Of a stretch of 64,000 bases of DNA, positions 48,230 to 64,000 are shown piece by piece. Source of the DNA: Alienimonas californiensis (GTDB lineage: Bacteria; Planctomycetota; Planctomycetia; Planctomycetales; Planctomycetaceae); the NCBI RefSeq assembly GCF_007743815.1, contig NZ_CP036265.1, forward strand, positions 1,390,501 to 1,454,500. Reading direction: 5' to 3'. The translations under genes were made by a program, and so were the position numbers. The notes under the pieces were generated by a model. It did no database searches. It was not told the DNA's origin and saw only the letters and a program-made list of their open reading frames with translations. Each line of letters starts with the position of its first letter. Within the stretch, counting starts at the first letter, position 1.

Positions 48230-48640
48230 TTGATCGTTAACCTGTCCCACCCGCTCAGCAAAGCCCAGCGGAGGGCCCTGCGGGACCTCGTCGGCGAGGC
48301 GGCGGAACCGGTCCGCGAACTCCCGCTGCACTTGGACCACGCCCGCCCGCTGGCCCCGCAGGTCCGGGCGGCGGTGGACGGGGCGGGGCTGTCCGGTCGG
48401 GACTGGCAGACCGAACCGGTCCTGCTGGTTCCCCCCGGCTTCGCGCCGGCCGCCTGCGCGGTCTTGGCGGAGTTGCACGGGCGGTGCGGGTATTTTCCGC
48501 CGGTCGTTCGGCTGCGGCCTGTCCCCGGATCGGTGCCGCCAGCGTTTGAGGTGGCGGAGGCGGTCGACTTGGCCGCCGTCCGCGATCTCGCCCGGGCCGG
48601 GCGGGGGTCGACGGCGGGACCCGGTTCCGGCGACGGTTGA
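48230..48640 (+). CDS. csx15: CRISPR-associated protein Csx15
   Basis: A 136-residue protein recognisable as Csx15 from MIVNLSHPL at the N-terminus, the middle LAPQVRAAVDGAGLSGRDWQ, and the C-terminal VLAELHGRCGYFPPVVRLRP followed by VPGS. Csx15 belongs to the type III accessory proteins proposed on comparative grounds to bind or degrade cyclic oligoadenylate, so it may damp the signal made by Cas10. The start is a TTG at 48230 with GGAAGG a few bases upstream; no ATG lies nearby in frame. It leads the cas operon, 70 bases before cas10, which supports a role in signalling control over RNA interference itself. Confidence 0.85.
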   Translation: MIVNLSHPLSKAQRRALRDLVGEAAEPVRELPLHLDHARPLAPQVRAAVDGAGLSGRDWQTEPVLLVPPGFAPAACAVLAELHGRCGYFPPVVRLRPVPGSVPPAFEVAEAVDLAAVRDLARAGRGSTAGPGSGDG

Positions 48641-48710
48641 TCCCCGCCGCCCCCGGGCGTATTCCCGGGACCTCCGGAAAACGGTCCGCAGTTATCCCGG
48701 GGCGGCGTCA

Positions 48711-51002
48711 GTGCGGAACCCTCCGCGGCGTAAGGCCGGCGTCTCGCCCCGAACCGAAGTCGATCCGCTGCCCGTCCTCGCCCAGTTCGCCGTCAGCCCG
48801 GTTCAGCGCTTCATCCGCGAAGCCCGCAAGTCGCAGGACATATGGAGCGGCAGTCTCGTGCTGTCCCACCTCACGCTCGCCCTGTGCGACGCGGCGCGGG
48901 AACGGGGCGGGGAAATCCTCTTCCCGGCCGGGGCGTTCGAGGATAGCGCGCCCAAGCACCCGCACCGGCCCCGGGTGACGAACGAGGTCACCGCGCGGTT
49001 CGACGACAATGCCCCCACCACGGTCGTCGCGTTTTGCGAGGACGTCGCCGGGGCCGGTCGGGCTTGGTGGCTTGACGCGGGGGAGAAGGTGCGGAACGGA
49101 CTGCTCTCCGCCGGGCTCTTCCGGGAGGGGGAGTTGGAGAAGTGGTCGGAGCAACTGAAGTCCCGGTTCACGATCGGCTGGTCGTGGGCCGCGGTCGGCG
49201 AGGGGGGCGACGCCGCGGCCCTGCACGCCCTGCACCGTTACGCAGCCGCCGCGAAGGCGGCCCGCCGGCCGGCGGTCTACCGAGGCGACGACCGGCCCAA
49301 GTGCACGCTGTGCGGCGAGTTTGAGCAGATGGGGGAGCCGGGGAAGACCGTGAAGGAGGCGACCGCGTTCTGGACGGCCACGGTCTGGGGTGAGATTGGG
49401 ACCGGCGAGGCCTCCCGGGTGATCCGCGCCCGCCTGGATCCGAACGGCCGTGAACGACTGTGTGCGGTCTGCCTGACGAAACGCTTCGCTCCGGTCTGGG
49501 CGATCGCTCCGAAGTTCAAGAAGGCCGCGGAAGATCGCGACGACGCCGCGGAGGCTCGGCGGTGGGATCACACCAAGGAGGAATCGTATCTGCGGTTCCC
49601 CTCGACCCACTCCGTCGCCCTGGCCGCGGCGAAGCGGCGGGTCGCCGAGGCGGCGGCGAAGGGAACGGACGAGGCGGAGAAGCTGCGGCAGGCGCTGGAC
49701 CGGTTCGTCGCGGCCGTCGACGCTCGGCGGGCGATCACCGGCGAGCCGCTCGGCCGTCATGTGTCTCCGTGGCACGCGGACGTGCCTGGCGCCGACGCCG
49801 ACGGGCCGGCCCGTCGGTTCCTGCGGCTGGACGGCGGGTGGCTGTTCCCCGACCGCTGGGACGGCGCCGGCGACGACGACCCAGGCGGACTGTTGAAGAC
49901 GCTTGACGGGCTGCGTCACGCCGCGAAGGCTGCCGGGGCCCCGCTGGGCGACTGCCCGCCCGTCGCCTTGATCCGAGCCGACGCGGACAAGATGGGGGAG
50001 CGGCTCGAGCGTGAGGCGCGTGAGGGCGGCGTCGAACGCGCCCGAGAACTCAGCCGCGTCCTTGCCGAGAACGTGCTGGCGGAGGACGGGCTGATTCGAG
50101 CCTTGGAGACCGATCACCTCGGGGCCGTGTTGTTCGCCGGCGGGGACGAGCTGATCGCGATGGTCCCCGTCGAACAGGCCCTGCCCGCGGCCGCCGCGAT
50201 CGCCGAGGCGTACGAGAAGCGCGCCGCGGAGGCGGGTTCCCAAGAACGGCGTGGCTTTCCGGACGTAACCGGCAGCGTGGGGGTCACGACGGTGTCCGTC
50301 TCGCACCCGCTGCGTATGGCGATCGAAGGGGTCGGCGACCTGCTGGAGCGGGCGAAGAACCATCGCCGGCCGGCCGTGGGGGCGGAGCGGGGCGACGCCG
50401 AGGGACTCCGGGACCGGCGGGCGTTGGGCCTCGCCGTCATTCCTGGCTCCGGCAACGTCCGCGAGGGGCGGGTCGGCCTGTCAGTCGCCGCGGCCGGCGG
50501 AGAGCCCCGTCGGGTGATCGGCGACCTGCTGGCCCCCCTGGCCTTGGCGATGACCGAGTCCGGCGTCGCATTGGAGCTTCGCCCGAAGGGCGACGGACCG
50601 ACTCGACCCGTGACGGCCCGCGTCTCCCCGAAGCTGTTCCGGGAGTGGGTCGCCCTGCTGGCCCCCGTCGCCCCGCGCGGGCGGGCGAAGTTCGATAAGA
50701 TCGCCCCGCACTTCCTCCCGGCCGAAAGCTCCGCGGTGGGCGGCCGCGACGGCGGCTACGCCTTGGCGGAGTTCGCCCGCCTGGCGGAACGGCACCTCGC
50801 CTCGATCGATCCGCCGCCGTCCCCCAAAGACCGGGCGGACATGTCGCGGGCGGTCGCCCGGACCCTCGCCGACGAACTGCGTCCGCTGCTGCCGGCCGAC
50901 CCAGCGGTCGCGACGGGCGCGGACTGGGACAACCTCACCGGGCTGCTGGCGTGCGTCGTCACGCTGGGCACCCGCACGCTGCGGGGGGCGGACGACCGAT
51001 GA
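48711..51002 (+). CDS. cmr2: Cas10/Cmr2, type III-B large subunit (GGDE variant)
   Basis: A 763-residue Cas10 of the Cmr2 kind. N-terminus SPVQRFIREARKSQDIWSGS is the Cmr2 signature; there is no N-terminal HD nuclease domain. A treble-clef zinc site is seen as CTLCGEFEQ plus LCAVCLTKRF. The palm domain has ALIRADADKMG as its first metal motif, and the core nucleotidyl-cyclase motif reads AGGDELIAM, i.e. GGDE (residues 477-480, D479/E480) where GGDD is usual. Asp-to-Glu is conservative (diguanylate cyclases use GGDEF), and the downstream CARF protein and Csx15 argue that cyclic-oligoadenylate synthesis persists. The GTG at 48711 is the best start. The stop overlaps the cmr3 ATG. Confidence 0.94.
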   Translation: MRNPPRRKAGVSPRTEVDPLPVLAQFAVSPVQRFIREARKSQDIWSGSLVLSHLTLALCDAARERGGEILFPAGAFEDSAPKHPHRPRVTNEVTARFDDNAPTTVVAFCEDVAGAGRAWWLDAGEKVRNGLLSAGLFREGELEKWSEQLKSRFTIGWSWAAVGEGGDAAALHALHRYAAAAKAARRPAVYRGDDRPKCTLCGEFEQMGEPGKTVKEATAFWTATVWGEIGTGEASRVIRARLDPNGRERLCAVCLTKRFAPVWAIAPKFKKAAEDRDDAAEARRWDHTKEESYLRFPSTHSVALAAAKRRVAEAAAKGTDEAEKLRQALDRFVAAVDARRAITGEPLGRHVSPWHADVPGADADGPARRFLRLDGGWLFPDRWDGAGDDDPGGLLKTLDGLRHAAKAAGAPLGDCPPVALIRADADKMGERLEREAREGGVERARELSRVLAENVLAEDGLIRALETDHLGAVLFAGGDELIAMVPVEQALPAAAAIAEAYEKRAAEAGSQERRGFPDVTGSVGVTTVSVSHPLRMAIEGVGDLLERAKNHRRPAVGAERGDAEGLRDRRALGLAVIPGSGNVREGRVGLSVAAAGGEPRRVIGDLLAPLALAMTESGVALELRPKGDGPTRPVTARVSPKLFREWVALLAPVAPRGRAKFDKIAPHFLPAESSAVGGRDGGYALAEFARLAERHLASIDPPPSPKDRADMSRAVARTLADELRPLLPADPAVATGADWDNLTGLLACVVTLGTRTLRGADDR

Positions 51003-53947: not shown

Positions 53948-54930
53948 TGGCGACCGCCGTTTCCTACGAGAGCCTTCACTGGCGGCCGCCCGCGCCAGGA
54001 GCAGTCCGGGATCTCTACGGCGATCGTCCGGTGCCGGAGCCGGAGCGGTTTCACCCGGGCTTGGTCTTCGACCGCCTGCTGCCCATCCCGTACCTGACCG
54101 CCGAGTACAAATCGGTGGAGCGGCTGGCGTTCGCCAAGTCCGAAGCCGCAGGCCGGAAGGTGGACGGGCTGAAGGGGAAGTGGCTGTTCGACTTTGTCGA
54201 CCGGGCGAACGCTTATTACCGCAGTGCCGTCACGCCCCCACTGGCCGCACACCACGCCCGGGCCGACGCCCTGCTGACCTCCGTCCCGTCCGTCCGGTTC
54301 GACGCCTCTCCCGCTTGGCGATGGGTGACAGGGTTGGGCAACGAAACGCCGCTGGAGACCGGCCTCACGCTGCATCGCCCGCTCGGTGTGCCGTACCTGC
54401 CCGGCTCCGCCCTCAAGGGGCTGACGCGGGCCTGGGCGACGCTAACCGCGGAGGAGATCGCGACTGACCCCGCCATCTTGGAGGAATTCCGCGGCGAGGC
54501 GGCCCCACCCACCGCCGAAATGCTCGACGCCGTCTTCGGTCCGGAGGAGGAGCCGACGCCTCCCCGCTCCGAAAACGGCGAATGGCGACGGACCGGCTCG
54601 GTCGTGTTCCACGACGCCCTGCCTCGGCCCGGGTCCGGGTTTGGGCTGGCGGTGGACGTGATGACGCCCCACTTCCCCAAGTATTACGCCGATGCGACCG
54701 GGGCCATCGCCCCGCTCGAGATCGAGGACCCAGTTCCGGTCCCGTTCCTCGTCGCCTCGGGCGGCACCTACGCGGTCGCGCTGACCGCCCGCACCGCCGC
54801 CGGCACGGCCCTGCTGCCGTCGGCCGCGGCGTGGTGCCGGTCCGCCCTGGAGGATCTCGGCGCCGGCGGCAAGACGGCGAAGGGATACGGCTATTTCCTG
54901 ATTTCCGAGGCGGAAGGGGCGGCGAGATGA
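53947..54930 (+). CDS. cmr6: Cmr6 (Cas7-group RAMP)
   Basis: A 327-residue RAMP that caps the 3' end of the Cmr backbone. Recognisable features: NETPLETGLTLHRPLGVPYL, PGSALKGLTRAWA (glycine-rich loop), VVFHDALPRP, DVMTPHFPKYYAD and the C-terminal LEDLGAGGKTAKGYGYFLI. The ATG at 53947 overlaps the cmr5 stop (TGATG), and the gene ends overlapping cmr1 (ATGA). Length and motif order are normal for Cmr6. Confidence 0.94.
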   Translation: MATAVSYESLHWRPPAPGAVRDLYGDRPVPEPERFHPGLVFDRLLPIPYLTAEYKSVERLAFAKSEAAGRKVDGLKGKWLFDFVDRANAYYRSAVTPPLAAHHARADALLTSVPSVRFDASPAWRWVTGLGNETPLETGLTLHRPLGVPYLPGSALKGLTRAWATLTAEEIATDPAILEEFRGEAAPPTAEMLDAVFGPEEEPTPPRSENGEWRRTGSVVFHDALPRPGSGFGLAVDVMTPHFPKYYADATGAIAPLEIEDPVPVPFLVASGGTYAVALTARTAAGTALLPSAAAWCRSALEDLGAGGKTAKGYGYFLISEAEGAAR

Positions 54931-56216
54931 AGTGGGTCCGCCTGGAACTGGAACTGATCACACCGTGTTTCCTGGGCGGGGCGGCGGGCGATCGCACGAC
55001 CGCCGCCGATCTAAAGAACGAACTGCTCCGCCCGGCCAGCCTGATTGGGCAGTGGCGGTACTGGCTGCGCACGTTGCACGTCGACGGGTTGGCCGATGAC
55101 TGGCGGCAGCGGGAGCGCGAGTTGTTCGGGGCCGCGTCCGGATCGGCCGGGGCGACCCAGGGGCGGGTCTGGGTGCGGCCGGTTGCAGGTCGCGAGCCGG
55201 AAACAATTCCCGCCAGCCGGGAGGAGGGACGCCAAAGCGACCACCTTCTGCACCGCCCGCCTCTGGAGCTTCAGTACCTGCTCGGTCAGGGGCTCTGGGA
55301 TCGGAAGGAGGGGCTCACCCGGCCTGCGTTCCGGGAGGGACAGCGATTACTCGTGGACGTAGCCGTCCGACCGACACGGGGACAGTCGCCGGAAGATCGA
55401 GCCCGAGACTTCAAACACCTGCGGCACGCTCTCACGCTGTGGCATACGTTCGGCGGGCTGGGGGCCCGATCCCGCCGCGGGTGGGGCAGCGTTCAGGTCG
55501 TCAACCTCGACGCCGCCGCCGTGCCGGACGTGCCGGCTACCTCGGGCGAAAAGCCGGAGCGCTGGTTCTGGGAGAACGAGTTCCGCGGATTGCGGCCTGC
55601 GGAGCAGTGGCGGGATCTGGCCCGCGGCCGGACCGTCGCCTGGGGAGGACGAACGTCCGCTCCGGACGGAATGCTCTCTCCGTCCGGCACCGACTGCCAC
55701 CCCGGCGACCCGCGCACGGCCGACCTCGCCGGCGACGGCGACTTCTCGCGGCTAGACCGGTGCTGCGTGGTCACTCCGCCGTTCTCCGGCCGATCTTGGG
55801 ACGACGTGTTAGTACGTATTTCCGAGGTGATGAAAGCGGTTCGGGCGGACCCGGATTTCCGATTGCCCGGCGGCGAGTACTACTCTGGAGAAACGCCGCC
55901 CCCGCGCGCCGCCTTCGGCCTGCCGCACAATTACTTCTTCAAGAACAGCGGCGGAAAGGTCGACATCGACGGCGCCGCCGCCGGCGCGACCCGCCGGGCC
56001 TCCCCGGTTCTGCTACACGTCGCCCGGGTGAACGACCGTCACGGGCCGTTCGTGCCGGCGGTCCTCTGGTTGAAAGCGCCGCTCGCCCCGGCCGGCATGA
56101 GCTGGAAGTCCAAGGCCGGCCGCGGCAGGGTGGGGGCGCCGGACTGGGAGGCGGTCCGAAGGTTCCTCCTCGCCGCCGCCGACCCGACCACGGTATCGTC
56201 CGCGCCGAGACGGTGA
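54927..56216 (+). CDS. cmr1: Cmr1 (Cas7-group RAMP)
   Basis: A 429-residue RAMP of type III-B. N-terminus LELELITPCFLGGA; then ELLRPASLIGQWRYWLRTLH and the distinctive TFGGLGARSRRGWGSVQV, which is diagnostic of Cmr1. In Cmr complexes Cmr1 sits at the 3' end of crRNA and affects target capture. Gene order cmr2-3-4-5-6-1 is one of the standard III-B arrangements. The ATG at 54927 overlaps the cmr6 stop. Confidence 0.94.
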   Translation: MKWVRLELELITPCFLGGAAGDRTTAADLKNELLRPASLIGQWRYWLRTLHVDGLADDWRQRERELFGAASGSAGATQGRVWVRPVAGREPETIPASREEGRQSDHLLHRPPLELQYLLGQGLWDRKEGLTRPAFREGQRLLVDVAVRPTRGQSPEDRARDFKHLRHALTLWHTFGGLGARSRRGWGSVQVVNLDAAAVPDVPATSGEKPERWFWENEFRGLRPAEQWRDLARGRTVAWGGRTSAPDGMLSPSGTDCHPGDPRTADLAGDGDFSRLDRCCVVTPPFSGRSWDDVLVRISEVMKAVRADPDFRLPGGEYYSGETPPPRAAFGLPHNYFFKNSGGKVDIDGAAAGATRRASPVLLHVARVNDRHGPFVPAVLWLKAPLAPAGMSWKSKAGRGRVGAPDWEAVRRFLLAAADPTTVSSAPRR

Positions 56217-56376
56217 CGCCCCGACCTTCGCCCGCCCCCTGATCGGCCGCCGCCCCCCGCCGCCCAACCTCGCCGCCCTCGCCGCCCTCGCGGCGGAAGC
56301 GGCGGAGTCCTGCGCGCGGCGTCGGCACGGACGGGCGGACGCGAACGAACTACTCGGGCCGATTTACGAGCACCTT

Positions 56377-57282
56377 GTGCGGGTGTGGCACCAGTACGAC
56401 CCCGCCGCCGGGTTGCCGGGGGCGTGGGCCGCCCGGGTGGCGGAGAACCGCGTCCGCGACCTCGAACGGGCCGAACGCCGCCGCCGCGCCCGCGATCGGC
56501 GGGCCGCCGCTTCCGGGCCCGACGCCGCCGACCCCGGCCCGGACGCCTTCACGCCGCTCGCCGGCGCTTTAGACGGGGAGGCGCCGGCGTTTTCCCCCGA
56601 CGACGTCGCACGGTTGAACGCCGAAGACGTTCTCTCCCGCGTGCTGATCGCCGCGGCGTACGGGCTGTGGCGGGTCGCCCCGGCCGGGTTCACGGGTCCC
56701 GGAGGGGACTGGTTCGCTTGGCTGGACGAACTGGGGGCCGTCGATCCGGCGGCGGTCGACGACGCCCTGCTGGCGGCCGACACCTCCCGGGAACGGGTCG
56801 CGATCGTGGCCGACGTCGCCGGGCTAGTGGACAACTCGGTCTTCCAACGCTTCAGACGCTCACGGCACCGGGTTGTGCGGCTGGATTACTGGTGGAACGT
56901 CGCCCTGCCGCACGTCGACCACCACGACGTCTTCACGGGCGACGACCTCGCCAGGTTGCGGGCAGTGGGAGGCGAACCGGTCGAGGCGGACGGCCCGCCG
57001 GCGGACCGGCTGGTCCTGCTCTGCCTGGGCGGGGCGTGGAACCGATTCGAAACGCGGAGCGACTTCGAGGAGGTCTGCCGCCCCAACGTCCTGCGGAAGA
57101 ACTTCCCCTGGCTGACGTTCCTGGAGGAACGGTCGTTCGCCGCCCGCCTGCGGGCGCTGTCCGGCCGCGACGCCCTACACCGCCCCGCCGAGGAAGTGCG
57201 GGGCCTGTGGCGAAAAACCAAGGACGACCGGTCAGCCCTGGCCGTGCGGGGACGTAGAGATTCCGGAGAGACTGATGAGTGA
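56377..57282 (+). CDS. Sigma-factor-like protein in the CRISPR operon
   Basis: At least 301 residues from a GTG at 56377, but the homologous region begins earlier. The codons just upstream continue the same frame as LLGPIYEHL before VRVWHQYDPAAGLPGAWAAR and VAENRVRDLERAERRR, a pattern like sigma-70 region 2 of ECF factors (xYxxLVRxW, YDP, GAWxxRVxxNxxRD). No ATG/GTG/TTG occurs upstream in frame; a CTG at 56239, 22 bases after cmr1, would extend it to ~347 residues. A later segment RERVAIVADVAGLVDNSVFQ resembles a region-4-type helix-turn-helix. Two units similar to DRLVLLCLGGAWNRF occur in the C-terminal half. It overlaps the 273-aa gene by 8 bases. A transcription role is inferred. Confidence 0.6.
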   Translation: MRVWHQYDPAAGLPGAWAARVAENRVRDLERAERRRRARDRRAAASGPDAADPGPDAFTPLAGALDGEAPAFSPDDVARLNAEDVLSRVLIAAAYGLWRVAPAGFTGPGGDWFAWLDELGAVDPAAVDDALLAADTSRERVAIVADVAGLVDNSVFQRFRRSRHRVVRLDYWWNVALPHVDHHDVFTGDDLARLRAVGGEPVEADGPPADRLVLLCLGGAWNRFETRSDFEEVCRPNVLRKNFPWLTFLEERSFAARLRALSGRDALHRPAEEVRGLWRKTKDDRSALAVRGRRDSGETDE

Positions 57283-58096
57283 CGCCCCCACCGCCGCCGA
57301 CGATCCGCACGCCGCGGACGACCCGCTGGTATGGCGCGACCTTCCGGACCCGCGCGGATGGGACCCGCATTCCACGAACTACGACCGCGACGCGACCTGG
57401 GACGTGGAAGCTCAAGACGACCGTTGGGTCAAACTCACCAGGCGACCGAACCGCCACAAATCCGCCCACATTTCGGACGACTCGCCGGAGCGGCCGCGCT
57501 GGGACGCGTGGCTCGGGCCCGAGGTCGTTGCCGACCTCGTCCGCCTCGCCCCGAAGAACTCCCGATCCAAGCTGAAGAAAGCGTGTGCCGCGGCGGTCGC
57601 GGCGGCCGACGCCGCCGTACGTCAGACCTTGGGGATTCCGCTCGCGGTGCTGCACGGCAGCAAAGCGGTGGTACGGGACGGCCGGAAGATCGAGTCGCCC
57701 CGGGGCCGTAAAATGCTGTTGATGGTGCTCGAGAACGGGGCCCGGGTCGTCCTGCAGTACCTCGACGCCCCGCGTCGGGGGCGTCTCACGACCGCATTCT
57801 TCCCCGACGCTTCGTTGGACGCGCTGCTCGGCGGGCACCTCCCGGGGCTTGAGTGGCAGGCCGCGGTGAGCGAGACGGTCGCCGCGTATTGTCCGCCGGG
57901 GCAGGTCCTGCCGGACATCCACCACACGTTCGAGGTGAAGCAGACGGGGCGCGGCCGGACCGAACGGCGGACTGGCGTCCGGTTTCTCACACCCGGGGCG
58001 TGGGGCTTCGCGTCGGACGAACCCGGGGCCGTCTGGGAAAGCCCCTCCGCCTACCCCTCCCCGGCGGCGGTGGAACAGCGCGGAGCAACATCATGA
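57275..58096 (+). CDS. Unrecognised CRISPR-linked protein, 273 aa
   Basis: A 273-residue soluble protein; no family recognised. Notable parts are a polar N-terminus with ATWDVEAQDDRWVKLTRRPN, a helical Ala/Lys-rich middle (SRSKLKKACAAAVAAADAAV), and a beta-rich part MVLENGARVVLQYLDAPRRG followed by RLTTAFFPD. The last phrase faintly recalls RelE/BECR-type ribonuclease domains, but no catalytic set can be fixed. It starts inside the sigma-like gene and ends overlapping the 394-aa gene (ATGA), so its stoichiometry with both is likely matched. Its size and position make it a candidate for the regulatory partner or proteolytic target of the Lon-CARF protein. Confidence 0.65.
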   Translation: MSDAPTAADDPHAADDPLVWRDLPDPRGWDPHSTNYDRDATWDVEAQDDRWVKLTRRPNRHKSAHISDDSPERPRWDAWLGPEVVADLVRLAPKNSRSKLKKACAAAVAAADAAVRQTLGIPLAVLHGSKAVVRDGRKIESPRGRKMLLMVLENGARVVLQYLDAPRRGRLTTAFFPDASLDALLGGHLPGLEWQAAVSETVAAYCPPGQVLPDIHHTFEVKQTGRGRTERRTGVRFLTPGAWGFASDEPGAVWESPSAYPSPAAVEQRGATS

Positions 58097-59277
58097 AGGA
58101 GAAGCCCCTCGACCCGTTAGGCCACCGGACCCGGCTGCGGATGCTCACGGCCCGGCCGGAGTACGCGGCGGCGGTCGCCGGCCCGACCGATGCCCCGGCC
58201 GCCCGGGCCGCCGCGCTCATGGCGGCGGTGTCCCGCGGGTGGTGCCTGCTGGCCGGCGCGGTCGGGGAATCGGCCCCGCTCCCGCCGGCGGTGATCGAGA
58301 ACGGCTCGGCCGCGGCCGGCCCGGCGGTCGACGCGCTGCTCGCGCAGCTGGGCGGGTTGGCCGACCGGGTCGACGCCGCCGAGTCCCAGTTCGAGATCGA
58401 CGCGATCGTCGTCGCCCCGCTCCGGACGCGGGCGGACCTGCACGCCGCCGCCGCGGCGGCCCGCGAGACTGTCGGCCCTGACGCCCCCGCGACTGGCGAA
58501 CTCGACCGCCGGGGCGCCGACCTCGACGCGGCCCTGCGCGAGAACCTCGACCTGATCTCGTTGGCCGCGGACACGTACCTACTGGACAACTGGCGGGCCC
58601 TGGTCCTGCCGGAACACGCCGCGGGCCTGTGGTGGCTGTCCGGCGAAGTCGAGGCCGCCCGGGACGCCGCCCGCCTCGACGCAGAGGCCGGACTACCCAC
58701 CGCCGACTGGTGGGCCGACCTCGCCGTCACCCTCGACCCCAGGTCGTATTTCAACGAAACCACCGCGGAGGTCGTCGCTTCGACCTCGACCACGAAGCCC
58801 CCCGCGCCCCCTGCCGAGGGACGTAGCCTGGTCACGCGGGCGACGGCCGAATATCGCCATCCCGTGCGGTGGGGCGCGATCGTTCCGCAGGCGGCGATGG
58901 CGGCGGCGACGCCCGCGGCGGGCGCGCCCACCGCGGCGCGGTTCGTCTCCCCCGACGGGACGGTGATCGCGACCGTCCGCGTTCCCGCCGTCACGAAGCC
59001 GAGCGGCGAGACCCCCCTGGTCGTCCTGTTCGAGGCGGCGGGCGGCGACGACGCGACCCGGGAGGCGCTCGTCGGCACGACCTGCCGGCTGGGCGGGGCC
59101 CCCATCGCCGACGCCCCCGCCGCCACGGTCGAGGAAGTGCACGGGGCCGTCCGCGCGGCGTTCGTGTTCGAGAAGGTTCGGGACACATTGGGGCCGACGG
59201 CCGACGACGGTGCCGCCGGGCTGCGGCTGCGGGTGGATGACGCGGACTGGCCCGTCGTGCGGACGGACCGAGCATGA
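58093..59277 (+). CDS. Unrecognised CRISPR-linked protein, 394 aa
   Basis: A 394-residue protein; no family recognised and no membrane helix. Residues ~1-230 are predominantly helical and acidic, with Trp-rich text LLDNWRALVLPEHAAGLWWL near residue 165. Residues ~235-280 are a Thr/Pro/Ala-rich flexible stretch (STSTTKPPAPPAEGRS). The C-terminal ~115 residues are beta-rich (FVSPDGTVIATVRVPAV). Two domains joined by a disordered linker is the architecture expected of a regulated protease substrate, directly upstream of the Lon-CARF gene that it overlaps by four bases. That role is an inference. Confidence 0.65.
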   Translation: MKEKPLDPLGHRTRLRMLTARPEYAAAVAGPTDAPAARAAALMAAVSRGWCLLAGAVGESAPLPPAVIENGSAAAGPAVDALLAQLGGLADRVDAAESQFEIDAIVVAPLRTRADLHAAAAAARETVGPDAPATGELDRRGADLDAALRENLDLISLAADTYLLDNWRALVLPEHAAGLWWLSGEVEAARDAARLDAEAGLPTADWWADLAVTLDPRSYFNETTAEVVASTSTTKPPAPPAEGRSLVTRATAEYRHPVRWGAIVPQAAMAAATPAAGAPTAARFVSPDGTVIATVRVPAVTKPSGETPLVVLFEAAGGDDATREALVGTTCRLGGAPIADAPAATVEEVHGAVRAAFVFEKVRDTLGPTADDGAAGLRLRVDDADWPVVRTDRA

Positions 59278-60701
59278 CCGTGGCGGTAGTCAGTCCTGGA
59301 CGGATTCTCGACCCCTCGATCTCTGCCCCTGAACTCGCCGCCCAGCTGGGGCCGGCGTTGGCCGGGTGGTGGATGCCGGCCGCCTCCCGGGCCGAGGCGG
59401 CGGCGGCACTGTGTGACGACGCTTTCCTGCGTGTCCCCCGCCGGCCGGACGAGCCGGGAGCCTGCGCGGTCCTCTGCTGGCGCCGCGGCGGGGGCGCGGC
59501 ACTCCGCGAGGGCCTGCCGATTCCGGTGCGGTGGGAGGGGGTGGACAATCCAGGGGAGCCGGTTCACGACCCCCGCTTGCCGAAAGATTTGCGGTCGGTG
59601 GCCGACGACGTCCGGAGGGAGTTCCCGGACGAAGGCCGCGGGCGCCAGCTGGCCCTGGACGATCCGCCGGCGGAGAACGGGCCCCCGCTGCCGGATCTGT
59701 CCGGGTTCAGCCCGGACGTCCTCACCGCCGGCAGCGGGTTCGCATCGCTCTCCGCCGGCCTGATCGCCGCCGCCACCGCCCCGGACGAGCGGGTCCAAGG
59801 CGAACACCCCCGCGTGTGGGCGACCGGCGCCTGGCGGCCGGGTGGCGGCGTGGACGAGGTCGTGGGAATGCCCGCGAAGGTTGCCGCCGCCCGAGAGATT
59901 GCGGCGGAGTGGGGGGACGACCAGATTCAGTTCTTTGCCCCGGACGGCCAGTTGCAGCAGGTGAAGGACGCAGCCGCGTCCCCCGGGCCGGCCGTGACGC
60001 CCCGGACCTTCGCCGCCGACCCCCGCCCCGCGGTCGCGCTGGCTCCGCTGCTGGCCGCCTGCCGCCTGCCGCCCGACCCGCGGGCGGACCTTGACGTGTT
60101 GTTGGAGTACGAGGAGGCGTTGCGGCCGCACGACGCCCCCTCCGCGGACGCCTTCTACCGGGCCGCGATCCTGCCGCACGTTGTCGTCGACGTCAGCCCG
60201 TCGGGCGAGTCTCCCGGCCCGATAACACATTTGGTGACGGTCGTCAGCGGACAGACCGAGCCGGCCGAACTGGCCGCCCGGGCTCTCCGACCGCCGCCGG
60301 CCGTTCTGCTGTTGCACACCCACGAGTTTCGATCGAAGACCGCCCGATTACAGGGCCGTCTGAGGCAGGGGGGCGTTCTTTCGGTGGACGCCTGCGAGTT
60401 CATCCACCCGGGCGATCAGGCGGACGCCGGTGCCGCCTGGATGCCCGCCCTCGGCGATGCGCTGCGGGCGTCGGTCGCCCGTTTTCTGGAGGGGGCCGAC
60501 GCGAGCCGCGTGCTGTTCGAACTCACCGGCGGGACTTCCGCCATGAAGCTCGCGTTGGCACTCGGGGGGGCGATCCCGGCCGGGGCCGTCTGCCGCGTCC
60601 TTGACAGCGGCCGCTATCACCCCGTCCTGAATCGCGCCATGCCTGGGACCCAGCGGGACGCCGTCTGGCGGGCCGGGGAGTCGTGGGGGGCCGAGCCGTG
60701 A
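59274..60701 (+). CDS. Lon-type protease fused to a CARF domain
   Basis: A 475-residue fusion. The N-terminal ~240 residues form a Lon-like serine-lysine protease domain: FASLSAGL gives Ser160, VVGMPAKVAAA gives Lys202. The 42-residue spacing is almost identical to the Ser679-Lys722 dyad of E. coli Lon, and the intervening WATGAW...GGVDEV strand-turn fits. There is no AAA+ ATPase. Residues ~315-455 are a CARF domain: THLVTVVSGQTEPAELAARA and FELTGGTSAMKLALALGG, the signature found in DUF1887/Can-type sensors of cyclic oligoadenylate. The predicted role is a protease switched on by the Cas10 product. The ATG overlaps the 394-aa stop; the stop overlaps the next GTG. Soluble, unlike CalpL with its membrane helices. 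Confidence 0.85.
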   Translation: MTVAVVSPGRILDPSISAPELAAQLGPALAGWWMPAASRAEAAAALCDDAFLRVPRRPDEPGACAVLCWRRGGGAALREGLPIPVRWEGVDNPGEPVHDPRLPKDLRSVADDVRREFPDEGRGRQLALDDPPAENGPPLPDLSGFSPDVLTAGSGFASLSAGLIAAATAPDERVQGEHPRVWATGAWRPGGGVDEVVGMPAKVAAAREIAAEWGDDQIQFFAPDGQLQQVKDAAASPGPAVTPRTFAADPRPAVALAPLLAACRLPPDPRADLDVLLEYEEALRPHDAPSADAFYRAAILPHVVVDVSPSGESPGPITHLVTVVSGQTEPAELAARALRPPPAVLLLHTHEFRSKTARLQGRLRQGGVLSVDACEFIHPGDQADAGAAWMPALGDALRASVARFLEGADASRVLFELTGGTSAMKLALALGGAIPAGAVCRVLDSGRYHPVLNRAMPGTQRDAVWRAGESWGAEP

Positions 60702-61339
60702 CCTCCCCCGTCCCCCCCGATCCCCCCGCGTCCCCGGGGGCTGCGGTCCCGTCCGCCCCGCCGGCCGGCGCCGTCACGAGCACGGCGTCGGCCCGGGAGG
60801 CCGGGCGCAGGGTGTTTTGGGACCTGCCGCGGGAGCGGCCCGTGTCGGCGGCGGTGTTCGCGCTGGTCGTGGTCGCCTCCGCCGCCGCCCTGTTCGGCTG
60901 GCTGCCGGGCGGGTGGGTGGAGGCGCTGGACCGCTGCACCATCGTCGTCGCCTTCGGGGCGCTCTGGTTCAGCCTGATGACCTTCTGGCACGAGTTCCGC
61001 GAGGAACGCCTCGGGGCGGAGCGGATCGCCGTCGTCGTCGCCGACGGGGCCGGCCGGGAGGTGGTCGTCCGCTACCGGCCCCGGCGGCGGGACCTCACCC
61101 GCGGCGAACTGGGCGGCGTCCTGGCGATGCCGCTGGGCGGCGGCCACTACAACCGCGGGGCGATCTTCGAGCCCGCGTTCCAGGTTCGGGAGGGGGAGGC
61201 GGAGAGCCCGTTCGAGCGAACCCTCGCCGGGCGGACCGACCGGCTCGTCATCCGCGTCGCCCCGCAGGCGTTCGACGAATATCGAGCCCAGATCGCCGAG
61301 GCGGCCCGCGGCGGCGATCGCACGCCCGGGGCGGCCTGA
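60698..61339 (+). CDS. CRISPR-linked two-helix membrane protein
   Basis: A 213-residue protein starting at the GTG that overlaps the Lon-CARF stop (GTGA). A Pro/Ala-rich leader is followed by two membrane helices (residues ~47-68 and ~73-95) and a cytoplasmic C-terminal domain of ~110 residues with RIAVVVADGAGREVVVRY. No family recognised. Because the Lon-CARF protein has no membrane anchor, this protein could tether it or act as a membrane effector. Its stop overlaps the cas6 ATG. Confidence 0.65.
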   Translation: MTSPVPPDPPASPGAAVPSAPPAGAVTSTASAREAGRRVFWDLPRERPVSAAVFALVVVASAAALFGWLPGGWVEALDRCTIVVAFGALWFSLMTFWHEFREERLGAERIAVVVADGAGREVVVRYRPRRRDLTRGELGGVLAMPLGGGHYNRGAIFEPAFQVREGEAESPFERTLAGRTDRLVIRVAPQAFDEYRAQIAEAARGGDRTPGAA

Positions 61340-62274
61340 TGCGCGTCCTCACCGTCGACGGCTTATCGCTCGAGTTCGTCTCCGCCGGGCGGCTGGCCCC
61401 CTGGCTGGGGCCGGCGGTCCGCGGGACGCTCGCCGAGCCGCTCCGGCGCGGGCGCTGCCCCGCGACGGCCGGCGGCGGGCGGTGCGAGCCGGGGTCGCCC
61501 GAGGCCTGCGTCTCCTGCGCGACCTACGAGGCCCTCGCCCCACCGGTCCCGGCCGGGTCGCCGCTGGGGCGGGCCCGCGGGGCCGGCGGCGGCGTGCCCA
61601 AACCGGTCTCGCTCGCCCCCGCCGGGCCGGCCCCGGACTGGGCCGCCCCCGGGGACCGGCTGCTGTTCCGACTCACGCTGCTCGGGCCGGCCGCCGCCCA
61701 CATGGACGCACTGCTGGCCGCGTTGGACGGGGCCGGACGCGACCGCGGACTGGGGCCGGACGCGGTCCGCTTCTCCCTCGCCGGGATCGCCCGGCCGACG
61801 ACGCACGAACTGATTCCCGCGGCGTTGCCGGGCGGGCCGCGCGCCGTCCCCGGGACGATCCCGCGGCTGGGGCTGGAACTGACCGCCCCGCTGTTCCTCA
61901 CCGGCCGTGACGGGACCCCGCTGGTCGAACCGGACCTGCCGGGGCTGGTGCGGTCGGCGGTGCGGACCGTCGGGACCCTGCTGGCCTGCTGGGGCGAGGG
62001 AGACGGGGAGCTGACGCGAGCGGACACCGCGTCGCTGATCGCCGCCGCCGAATCCGCCCGGCCGCTGCCGGCGGACGCCCGCTGGGGTTCGTTCTCGCAG
62101 TCGCACCAGTCCACCCGGCAGGGCCGACGGCGGACGCTGCGGGGGTGCGGCGGGGCCGGGGCGTGGGCGGACGTGCCGGCCTGCCTGCTGCCCTGGCTGC
62201 TGTGGGCCGGCCGGTTGGGGTGCGGCAAGGACCGCGTCGCCGGCGCCGGCGTCTGGAGGCTGACTCTGGATTGA
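61339..62274 (+). CDS. cas6: Cas6 pre-crRNA endoribonuclease
   Basis: A 311-residue RAMP of the Cas6 family that cuts repeat RNA to release crRNAs. The C-terminal segment LPWLLWAGRLGCGKDRVAGA is the family's glycine-rich loop; the usual HxGK reads GCGK, so the histidine often present there is missing. A cysteine cluster near residues 40-60 (RCEPGS...CVSCATYEALAP) is typical of planctomycete and cyanobacterial Cas6. The N-terminus DGLSLEFVSAGRLAPWLGPA and the RGTLAEPL motif complete the picture. Cas6 follows the signalling module, so that module is embedded between cmr1 and cas6. Confidence 0.9.
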   Translation: MRVLTVDGLSLEFVSAGRLAPWLGPAVRGTLAEPLRRGRCPATAGGGRCEPGSPEACVSCATYEALAPPVPAGSPLGRARGAGGGVPKPVSLAPAGPAPDWAAPGDRLLFRLTLLGPAAAHMDALLAALDGAGRDRGLGPDAVRFSLAGIARPTTHELIPAALPGGPRAVPGTIPRLGLELTAPLFLTGRDGTPLVEPDLPGLVRSAVRTVGTLLACWGEGDGELTRADTASLIAAAESARPLPADARWGSFSQSHQSTRQGRRRTLRGCGGAGAWADVPACLLPWLLWAGRLGCGKDRVAGAGVWRLTLD

Positions 62275-62295: not shown

Positions 62296-62724
62296 TCAGT
62301 CCGCCGGGTCGAACCAGTCGGCCGCCTTCGCCCGGGCCCGCTGCTTGACGTTCTCGTCGATCGCGAAGGCGACCGCCGCCACGGTCCAGGCGAGGGCCGC
62401 CGCGTCGTCGGCGAAACCGACGCCCGGCAGCGCGTCGGGCACGGCGTCCAGCGGCATCATCAAATAGGCCAGCGCGGCGGCGATTCGGGCCTTCGCCCAC
62501 GCCGGCGTATTGGGGCTGAGGGCGGCGTAGTACAGCCACAGGGCCTTCTCGACCGTCTGCCGGCCGATCGCCCCGGCGCGGGTCGACAGCAGGCCCCGCA
62601 GCGCCGCCCGCTCGGGCAGAGCGTCCCCCTCCGGCGCCAGGTCCAACGAGGCCGGCCGTTCGGCGGGCAGCGGGTCTCCGCCACGGCAGGACGGGACGGA
62701 GAGACGGGCGGAGGGGGCGAGCAT
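62296..62724 (-). CDS. DUF1232 (YkvA-like) membrane protein
   Basis: A 142-residue protein convergent with cas6. The DUF1232 signature ALAYLMMPLDAVPDALPGVG followed by FADDAAAL (residues ~82-110) is clear, with a hydrophobic helix immediately after. The family is common in bacterial membranes with no assigned activity. The ATG at 62724 is the start. It is not part of the CRISPR operon (opposite strand), and its downstream end lies 22 bases from the cas6 stop. Confidence 0.88.
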   Translation of the reverse strand: MLAPSARLSVPSCRGGDPLPAERPASLDLAPEGDALPERAALRGLLSTRAGAIGRQTVEKALWLYYAALSPNTPAWAKARIAAALAYLMMPLDAVPDALPGVGFADDAAALAWTVAAVAFAIDENVKQRARAKAADWFDPAD

Positions 62725-62944
62725 GAGTGAGCGGGAGCGGCGGGGGTCTTGGACGGGTGGATGCGGGACTCACGTCCCGCCCCACCTACGCCGGTCGCGG
62801 TTCCCGCCTGACGCGGCGGGCAAAAAAGAACGGCCCGCACGCCCAACAGCGTGCAGGCCGTCATTGGCCGAAACAGATCGGCCCGGGGACGCCAAGGTAG
62901 CGAAGGCACTTCTGCTGCCCGTACGTGCCTCTGACACAGACCCC
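62725..62944. other. Region between DUF1232 and the CRISPR array
   Basis: Holds the leftward terminator at 62821-62860 and no gene. The ~80 bases between the terminator and the first repeat show no further repeat copy or AT-rich leader, consistent with this being the leader-distal side of the array. Confidence 0.6.
62821..62860 (-). terminator. Intrinsic terminator reading leftward
   Basis: A near-perfect 12-bp hairpin (62831-62842 with 62849-62860, one mismatch, six-base loop) is followed on the minus strand by a run of six T (A6 on the plus strand at 62822-62827). It lies immediately left of the CRISPR array and upstream of the minus-strand DUF1232 gene, so it would stop transcripts that read the array leftward and keep them out of DUF1232. 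Confidence 0.85.
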
Positions 62945-64000
62945 GTTTCAACCCGCCTGGTTAGCGGAAGCTCGGTGGGGTGAGGTCGAATACTACGAGC
63001 AATTGTTCGACGGGCAGTGGTTTTAACCCGCCTGCGTAGCGGAAACCCGGTGGGACGTGCCCACCAAGGGGCTCCCCAACGCGGCCCATCGGGGCACCAT
63101 GTTTCAACCCGCCTGCGTAGCGGATGCCCGGCGGGGCTCGGCGAGGGCCGGGCGATCTACAAAGACCCCGTCACCGACGAGTTTCAACCCGCCTGAGTAG
63201 CGGAAGCCCGGTGGGGCGGCGTGGACATCGCCAACTACCTCGGCAAGGTGCTGGTCAAGTTTCAACCCGCCTGCGTAGCGGAAGCCCGGTGGGTCGGCGA
63301 TGCACAAGTGCAACTTGAAGACCCCGCACCGCTTGTTTCAACCCGCCTGCGTAGCGGAAGCCCGGTGGGGCATCACGCGGGTCGACCACCTGAACGGCTG
63401 CGTGTTCTTTCACGTGTTTCAACCCGCCTGCGTAGCGGAAGCCCGGTGGGGCACGTTCAAGACCTGTTCCACACGGACGACGTGGTCGCCATCTGGTTTC
63501 AACCCGCCTGCGTAGCGGAAGCCCGGTGAGGCGACGGCCCGAACCTGCGGACCCTGCTCGCCGGTTCGCCCTATTTCAACCCGCCTAGTTAGCGGAAGGC
63601 CGGTGGGGCCCAATCTACAGCATCGACTGGGCGACGATGTACTACTACGCCCTGTTTCAACCCGCCTGCGTAGCGGAAGCCCGGTGGGGCGATGAACGAC
63701 TTCGTCGAGTTCTTCGAGGACCAGATCTGGGGGTTTCAACCCGCCTGGATAGCGGAAGCCCTGTGATGCCAAGCCGTTCGACAAGGCCCTGCTGGCGGAG
63801 CGTGTGCGGACGCTGGTGTTTCAACCCGCCCGCGTAGCGGAAGCCCGGTGGGACGCCCCCATCCCCAATCTCTCCGTCGGCCAGTCGGTCACGTTTCAAC
63901 CCGCCTGAGTAGCGGAAGCCCGGTGGGGCGACGTGCTGTGCGTCGTGGACGACTGCTGCGTCACCTGCTGGCCGTTTCAACCCGCCTGCGTCGCGGAGGC
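62945..64000 (-). CRISPR. CRISPR array, at least 14 repeats of 36 nt, runs off the window
   Basis: Repeat units start at 62945, 63020, 63101, 63181, 63259, 63335, 63416, 63496, 63573, 63654, 63733, 63818, 63893 and 63974 (last one truncated). On the plus strand they begin GTTTCAACCCGCC and end CCCGGTGGGG. Spacers are 39-49 nt, mostly 40-45. The complement ends in GTTGAAAC, the usual 8-nt crRNA 5' tag, so crRNA is probably made from the minus strand and the leader lies beyond 64000. Many repeats differ from consensus by one to six bases (for example those at 62945, 63020, 63573, 63733 and 63974). It is served by the Cas6 and Cmr genes to its left; no cas1/cas2 is seen. Confidence 0.97.

Follow-up and report, generated by a model that had tools for sequence, protein, structure and literature searches.

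A 64,000-nucleotide stretch of the Alienimonas californiensis genome (RefSeq assembly GCF_007743815.1, a single contig, NZ_CP036265.1, of 5.48 Mb; positions 1,390,501 to 1,454,500 of the forward strand, hereafter the window, in whose own numbering all coordinates are given) carries a type III-B CRISPR operon on the + strand, which runs from cas10 (open reading frame, ORF, from 48546) to cas6 (end 62274) and is followed by a CRISPR array. Between cmr1 and cas6 lie genes for a sigma-like protein, a 273-aa protein, a 394-aa protein, a predicted protease in which a CARF sensor is joined to a Lon domain (CARF-Lon) and a membrane protein, in that order. These five genes had been singled out in an initial annotation made from the sequence, and they are all co-directional, each overlapping the next by 8 bases (57275-57282), 4 bases (58093-58096), 4 bases (59274-59277) and, at the CARF-Lon/membrane-protein junction, 4 or 19 bases (membrane-protein start at GTG 60698 or 60683), with a further 1-base overlap (61339) into cas6. 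Comparative analysis makes it reasonably probable that the locus contains a conserved signalling cassette in which a messenger-activated CARF-Lon would cut the 394-aa protein, a predicted anti-sigma factor, and thereby free an extracytoplasmic function (ECF)-like sigma factor that changes transcription. The features on which this proposal is built are as follows.

56239..57282, + strand: sigma-like protein, start provisional; Pfam Sigma70_r2 match below cut-off, family profile matching the ECF sigma factor SigE
57275..58096, + strand: 273-aa middle protein (type A), family A3
58093..59277, + strand: 394-aa protein, predicted CARF-Lon client and anti-sigma factor
58120..58692, + strand: the N-domain, a helical N-terminal part (residues 10-200) of the 394-aa protein, type-matched to the sigma-like and middle proteins
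58876..59274, + strand: C-terminal tail (residues 262-394) of the 394-aa protein, probably the part that CARF-Lon recognises
59274..60701, + strand: CARF-Lon, predicted protease of 475 aa; PADLOC profile PDLC01981, E = 1.2e-52
59733..59735, + strand: codon of CARF-Lon Ser154, a Ser in 34/34 aligned rows, aligned with the Lon serine of 1z0e
59877..59879, + strand: codon of CARF-Lon Lys202, a Lys in 34/34 rows, aligned with the Lon lysine

Judged by sequence, the predicted protease is a member of a family already named in PADLOC (CARF_m2--CARF_LON), its residues 18-467 aligning with positions 22-408 of the 408 in that profile. On its own, the window protein matches no Pfam family up to E 1, and the case for its Lon and CARF halves therefore rests on a family profile; the Pfam Lon_C model likewise misses it and finds its match in this genome at another place. 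When built from 34 sequences (the window protein and 33 of its 36 relatives, with L063, L066 and L069 left out), the CARF-Lon profile matches in the PDB both the CARF domain of Csm6 (5fsh, 7.7e-14) and an archaeal Lon domain, that of LonB (1z0e, 7.6e-11). The ELTGGTSAMK motif previously assigned to the CARF part is aligned with the Csm6 CARF domains. The catalytic dyad had been placed at Ser160 and Lys202; the lysine stands, whereas column 160 is Ala in 24 of the 34 rows and Ser in 2, and the invariant serine is Ser154. By sequence alignment to 1z0e, the only superposition used, column 154 falls on the first Ser of the GDSAS stretch, which we take to be the Lon nucleophile. The Ser-Lys distance is most commonly 43 residues (16/34) and is 48 in the window, and the Ser-Lys dyad characteristic of Lon proteases is conserved in the CARF-Lon family.

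The sigma-like protein of the window scores 21.9 bits against Sigma70_r2, for which the cut-off is 24 (E = 1.5e-4), and its likeness to ECF sigma factors emerges at the level of the family. Region 2 was found in 18 of 28 aligned sigma rows (best 2.1e-18), a set that includes two ECF sigma factors (L046:13544 and L052) judged to lie outside the cassette, and a cleaned profile of 11 type-A rows, window included, matches ECF SigE in the PDB at 3e-8. A C-terminal helix-turn-helix-like stretch aligns across the type-A rows. The window protein also bears a C-terminal extension of about 100 residues (56900-57282) that is absent from the other 10 type-A rows.

The association of these genes recurs in other genomes. 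A CARF-Lon model was searched against 297 genomes of the class, of which 26 matched better than 1e-15 and 45 at 1e-3, and neighbourhoods were fetched for the 37 best places besides the window, down to E 8.6e-11. A CARF-Lon ORF is present in 36 of these (broken in two in L066), and L067 holds only a fragment. A relative of the 394-aa protein is found near CARF-Lon in 25 of the 36 related loci, and sigma, 394-aa and CARF-Lon genes occur together in 24 of 37 loci (the 36 relatives plus the window); co-occurrence in other genomes, proposed earlier as a check, is thus borne out in 23 related loci. One of the loci, L056, has the sigma and 394-aa genes after CARF-Lon. Among loci with an incomplete cassette, L065 and L066 are cut by contig ends and L036, L037, L052 and L053 are real misses. 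At the genome level, 25 of the 297 genomes match the model of the 394-aa protein, and 22 of these 25 belong to the 26 that have CARF-Lon. A model of the tail, counted at 2e-14 or better, gives 36 matches; they are spread over 22 genomes, every one of which is among the same 26, and three weak tail matches (0.0026-0.0061) were not counted. In the stretches fetched, no CARF-Lon adjoins ten of these 36 tail copies, yet their genomes do encode one; the contig of one such stretch, L114, ends just past the tail-bearing gene.

A wider sample of 392 genomes over the phylum contained six with a CARF-Lon match at 1e-15; of these six, three lie outside the class. In two of these three loci (L148 and L150), sigma, type-B middle and 394-aa relatives lie beside CARF-Lon, and the tail is present in L148. 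The third, L149, encodes a sigma factor with a clear region 4 (2e-9), a 281-aa protein and then a 306-aa protein. This last protein (L149:8043-8960), positioned between sigma and CARF-Lon, carries HRESCHSC, an instance of HxxxCxxC, the zinc anti-sigma motif; it has no Pfam family up to E 1 and gave a weak tail match (5.7e-5) in an eight-sequence test. Separately, a CARF-Lon locus from the window's own family (L062:5814-9441) has 317-aa and 280-aa neighbours that resemble, by eye, a sigma region 4 and an anti-sigma factor, with no Pfam match.

An indication of how the parts might fit together comes from the 394-aa protein. The 24 full-cassette loci fall into types by their middle protein, which is a relative of the 273-aa protein in 10 (type A), a member of a second family in 8 (type B) and neither in 6. 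Trees were built for the 24 loci, the A/B type was mapped on them and the labels were shuffled 500 times. Type changes once on the sigma tree and once on the 394-aa tree, and none of the 500 shuffles was as low; on the CARF-Lon tree it changes six times, with 279/500 (A) and 306/500 (B) shuffles as low, and a careful CARF-Lon tree gave 283/500 (A) and 316/500 (B). From these counts, the sigma, middle and 394-aa proteins change together and CARF-Lon does not follow. Within the 394-aa protein, the N-domain shares 27.8% identity within type A, 25.5% within B and 14.3% between the types, which hhalign could not align with each other (probability 6.5), whereas the tail (here residues 263-394) is as similar between types (23.1%) as within A (23.4%) or B (25.2%) and is common to both (hhalign probability 99.4, E = 6.1e-22). 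A tail-only tree of 23 rows (L045 being too short to include) mixes the types, with 5 changes against a shuffled mean of 6.0 and 171/500 (A) and 164/500 (B) shuffles as low. The pairs L055+L060 and L058+L061 group on the tail and CARF-Lon trees and not on the sigma tree, both pairs being long branches, and a grouping of L035, L051 and L064 is present on the sigma, tail and CARF-Lon trees alike; branch support of the trees is generally low.

As these alignments read, the 394-aa protein is a chimera of a type-bound N-domain and a tail blind to the type split, and the simplest reading is that it has two interfaces, the N-domain facing the sigma and middle proteins and the tail facing CARF-Lon. 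The chimera pattern, together with the restriction of strong tail matches to CARF-Lon genomes and the absence of the tail from helicase fusions in two genomes that lack CARF-Lon, makes it most likely that the 394-aa protein is both the client of CARF-Lon and the anti-sigma factor, its tail read by the protease and its N-domain gripping sigma. A predicted anti-sigma role also fits its position, flanked as it is by two partners whose changes are not coupled. The initial annotation had named either the 273-aa or the 394-aa protein as substrate or anti-sigma factor; the two-partner signature narrows this choice to the latter, and the 273-aa protein is placed as an accessory on the sigma side.

The upstream signal would be supplied by the Cas10 subunit of the operon.

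48546..51002, + strand: cas10 (Cmr2) ORF; TIGR02577 1.1e-30, over its cut-off; PADLOC Cas10 5.2e-52

The usual motif in Cas10 is GGDD; this ORF has GGDE at residue 532 and no GGDD. Because GGDE is among the Cas10 variants that PMC11229360 lists from loci where an effector is known, a second messenger is likely made here, with the window Cas10 as its likely source. Upon meeting target RNA, the Cmr complex would prompt Cas10 to produce cyclic oligoadenylate, which, by homology, CARF-Lon would bind through its CARF domain and be switched on. The protease would then recognise the tail of the 394-aa protein and cut that protein, a step suggested by co-occurrence and the exchange pattern, whereupon the N-domain, type-matched to its sigma and middle partners, would let go of sigma. 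The freed factor, predicted to be ECF-like, would change transcription. As three of these genes recur together in 23 related loci, virus detection would likely be converted into a gene-expression response.

Cassettes wired in other ways are instructive. Three genomes (G014, G019 and G248) have a 394-aa relative but match neither the CARF-Lon nor the Cas10 model. Two of them, G014 (locus L112) and G019 (locus L111), carry the N-domain as part of a helicase fusion, and relatives of the sigma and 273-aa proteins are encoded upstream of it. The helicase of L112 is like BrxHI of BREX (1.1e-38; L112:9251-12514), and that of L111 like DrmD of DISARM (6.7e-109; L111:3-9976), with TmtA and PDC-S68 matches downstream; no tail was found in either fusion. 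It is the same sigma/273-aa/N-domain cassette that is joined to these helicases, and neither CARF-Lon nor a Cas10 match occurs in the two genomes. The fusions show that the N-domain can be placed under other control, and they fit a general sigma-holding domain, although a non-proteolytic switch would fit as well. We entertain, with less confidence than an even chance would warrant, the broader idea of a plug-in sigma cassette for defence, a single sigma/anti-sigma unit that a detachable tail, recognised by CARF-Lon, would connect to type III CRISPR and that fusion would connect to DISARM- or BREX-like helicases. Different intruder sensors would then set off the same sort of transcriptional alarm, and several tail-bearing clients around the genome could be served by one CARF-Lon. 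Two further loci were noted in passing: at L105:6941-12510, 394-aa and sigma relatives stand beside a reverse transcriptase (RVT_1, 8.4e-26), away from CARF-Lon, and at L107:2598-7072 a 344-aa protein and then a PP2C phosphatase (5.4e-15) come after sigma and 394-aa relatives.

Several observations weigh against release of sigma by CARF-Lon. The helicase fusions themselves show that control without CARF-Lon exists. No anti-sigma family was matched in Pfam up to E 0.1 among 25 rows of the 394-aa family, and structure predictions from three-row alignments were of low confidence (mean pLDDT, the predicted local distance difference test, 32.8 for the 273-aa and 34.9 for the 394-aa protein). Across the 24 loci, distances correlate at 0.71 for sigma and N-domain and at 0.35 for tail and CARF-Lon; within type A the picture is mixed, with 0.27 (p = 0.058) for tail and CARF-Lon and 0.54 for N-domain and CARF-Lon, and these correlations are not used as support. 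The overlap between tail and CARF-Lon genomes, itself a point in favour, has a hypergeometric P of 1.5e-29, a value that ignores the relatedness of the genomes, and both the tail and 394-aa models were built mostly from copies beside CARF-Lon. Exceptions occur in both directions: four CARF-Lon genomes have no recognised tail (G169, G184, G210 and G288, the last with a CARF-Lon fragment only), the CARF-Lon of L150 adjoins a 394-aa relative that lacks a clear tail, and G248 has a weak tail. It speaks for the proposal that 25 of the 26 genomes with CARF-Lon exceed the cut-off of the Cas10 palm model (G113 and G253 weakly), compared with 59 of all 297, but this model also matches the Escherichia coli control and so is not perfectly specific. 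Finally, Pfam recognises region 4 in only 3 of the 28 sigma rows, and the window's sigma frame has no ATG, GTG or TTG upstream of GTG 56377, which itself lies inside the region-2 homology. The only upstream codons of note in that frame are CTG 56239, ATC 56242 and ATT 56362; a GTG at 56213, overlapping the cmr1 stop, opens nine codons that end at TGA 56240 in their own frame, offset from that of sigma. The gene may have a non-standard start or a frame change, or the sequence may contain an error.

Among other explanations, the one that survives best, though we think it unlikely, gives the leading role to the middle protein, whether of the 273-aa or the type-B family, as a toxin held by the 394-aa protein and freed by the CARF-Lon cut, with sigma only tuning expression. 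The middle protein does change type along with sigma and the N-domain; its two families seem to be related (hhalign probability 86.6, E = 4.5e-6), the type-B family has conserved His residues, and the sigma-binding piece of the Calp substrate is said, in an excerpt of a 2022 review, to resemble the MazF toxin (PMC9704534). Set against this are the six cassettes with no recognised middle protein and the lack of any toxin family match in Pfam or the PDB. In the 297 genomes, 16 of 17 strong 273-aa matches adjoin a sigma or 394-aa relative, and the one copy outside any cassette (L151) gave no clue. The 273-aa family has no Pfam family better than E 0.2. Assignment of the 273-aa protein as a BECR-type RNase, suggested by the look of its motifs, was dropped, as no Pfam or PDB family match supports it. 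The matches listed from a large protein database added little to the proteins of the window itself, at least one relative of the 273-aa family and one of the 394-aa family being among them; a scan of viral contigs found no relative, and a scan of genome contigs found two named loci, in Thermoguttaceae and Thermogutta metagenome-assembled genomes.

The scarcity of region 4 and the window protein's private C-terminal extension would also suit a scheme in which the sigma-like protein is an adaptor or polymerase blocker and CARF-Lon releases or destroys the complex to stop transcription. We consider this quite improbable, given that type-A proteins have a recognisable region 2 with matches to ECF sigma factors and that the L149 partner has its clear region 4. 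That CARF-Lon is a broad killer protease with unrelated passengers for neighbours is very unlikely: its genes do stand apart from the cassette in L036, L037, L052 and L053, beside ordinary metabolic genes in L036 and L053, but the neighbours are common to 24 of 37 loci, strong tail matches are confined to CARF-Lon genomes, and the genomes of L036, L037 and L053 (G113, G217 and G174) have the cassette elsewhere.

Release of an ECF-like sigma from a cleaved anti-sigma factor is the logic of the CalpL-CalpT-CalpS system (Lon-SAVED protease, anti-sigma factor and ECF sigma factor), and the initial annotation had proposed that the present locus follows it with a CARF sensor, a proposal that gains comparative support from co-occurrence and from the aligned Lon dyad. 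Both systems have a Lon protease fused to a messenger sensor, a type III neighbour, an ECF-like sigma and a third protein placed as the client, and the putative 394-aa anti-sigma factor parallels CalpT, which is cut by CalpL. In the Calp system, according to an excerpt of its description, cleavage of the client yields a 23-kDa piece, on which sigma stays, and a 10-kDa piece (PMC11417357). The window differs in its sensor, which is CARF rather than SAVED, in its extra middle protein and in a client whose tail is exchanged separately from its sigma-side domain. No SAVED match was found with Pfam in the window, the best PDB match of the sensor half being the Csm6 domain named above, and among PDB chains matched by the CARF-Lon profile up to E 1 there was none of CalpL. 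Nor did the 394-aa (up to E 10) or 273-aa family profiles find a CalpT- or MazF-like chain, in a PDB set whose inclusion of CalpT was unchecked. With no SAVED domain and no CalpT-like sequence found, the cassette is therefore not filed as Calp; it is one that works like Calp and is not a sequence member.

CARF-Lon effectors, which share family and domain architecture with the window protein, were predicted in a CARF survey cited by the 2022 review (PMC9704534), which speculates, in the excerpt concerned, that they hit essential host targets or kill promiscuously, and proposes no substrate there. The present analysis, in contrast to that account, predicts one specific client and an output at the level of transcription. 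In the literature searched, outside which most subscription papers fall, we found neither a description of a CARF-Lon/sigma module nor a named CARF-Lon substrate. The CARF-Lon family had been named before; what is new is the CARF version of the predicted circuit, the specific predicted client, the separate exchange of its tail and the sister cassettes wired to helicases. Since a specific predicted client is now named, together with the part of it that should be recognised, two purified proteins plus second messengers would suffice to test the question of the CARF-Lon substrate. Should the proposal be true, type III CRISPR is also coupled to sigma release through another sensor domain, apparently with partners other than those of Calp, and the cassette can move between CRISPR and helicase-based defence.

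The fifth gene of the group encodes a protein that, having no relative in the 37 fetched loci, falls outside the conserved cassette.

60683..61339, + strand: 218-aa membrane protein, from hydropathy; PADLOC Csx23 8.1e-4

It has one clear and one weaker hydrophobic stretch, and its match to the Csx23 profile is weak and covers half of it (positions 16-64 of 102); no PDB match was better than E 9.7. Csx23, as an excerpt of its description has it, is a cyclic tetra-adenylate (cA4)-gated membrane effector (PMC11014256) that combines a membrane domain with a cA4-binding C-terminal domain. It is possibly a second, membrane-acting cyclic oligoadenylate effector of the same operon.

The surrounding genes agree with the type III-B assignment made at the outset, which is backed by family matches for cas10, cmr3 (TIGR01888, 9.9e-20, under its cut-off), cmr1 and cas6; the names cmr4, cmr5 and cmr6 come from gene order alone. 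Rfam gave no match and PHROGs nothing useful.

54927..56216, + strand: cmr1; TIGR01894 1.2e-9, over its cut-off
61339..62274, + strand: cas6; PADLOC 2.3e-30
62939..64000, + strand: CRISPR array, 14 repeat copies up to the window end

A DUF1232 protein is encoded on the opposite strand (62296-62724) between cas6 and the array, and the 14 repeats of the array (62939-64000) vary among themselves at several positions.

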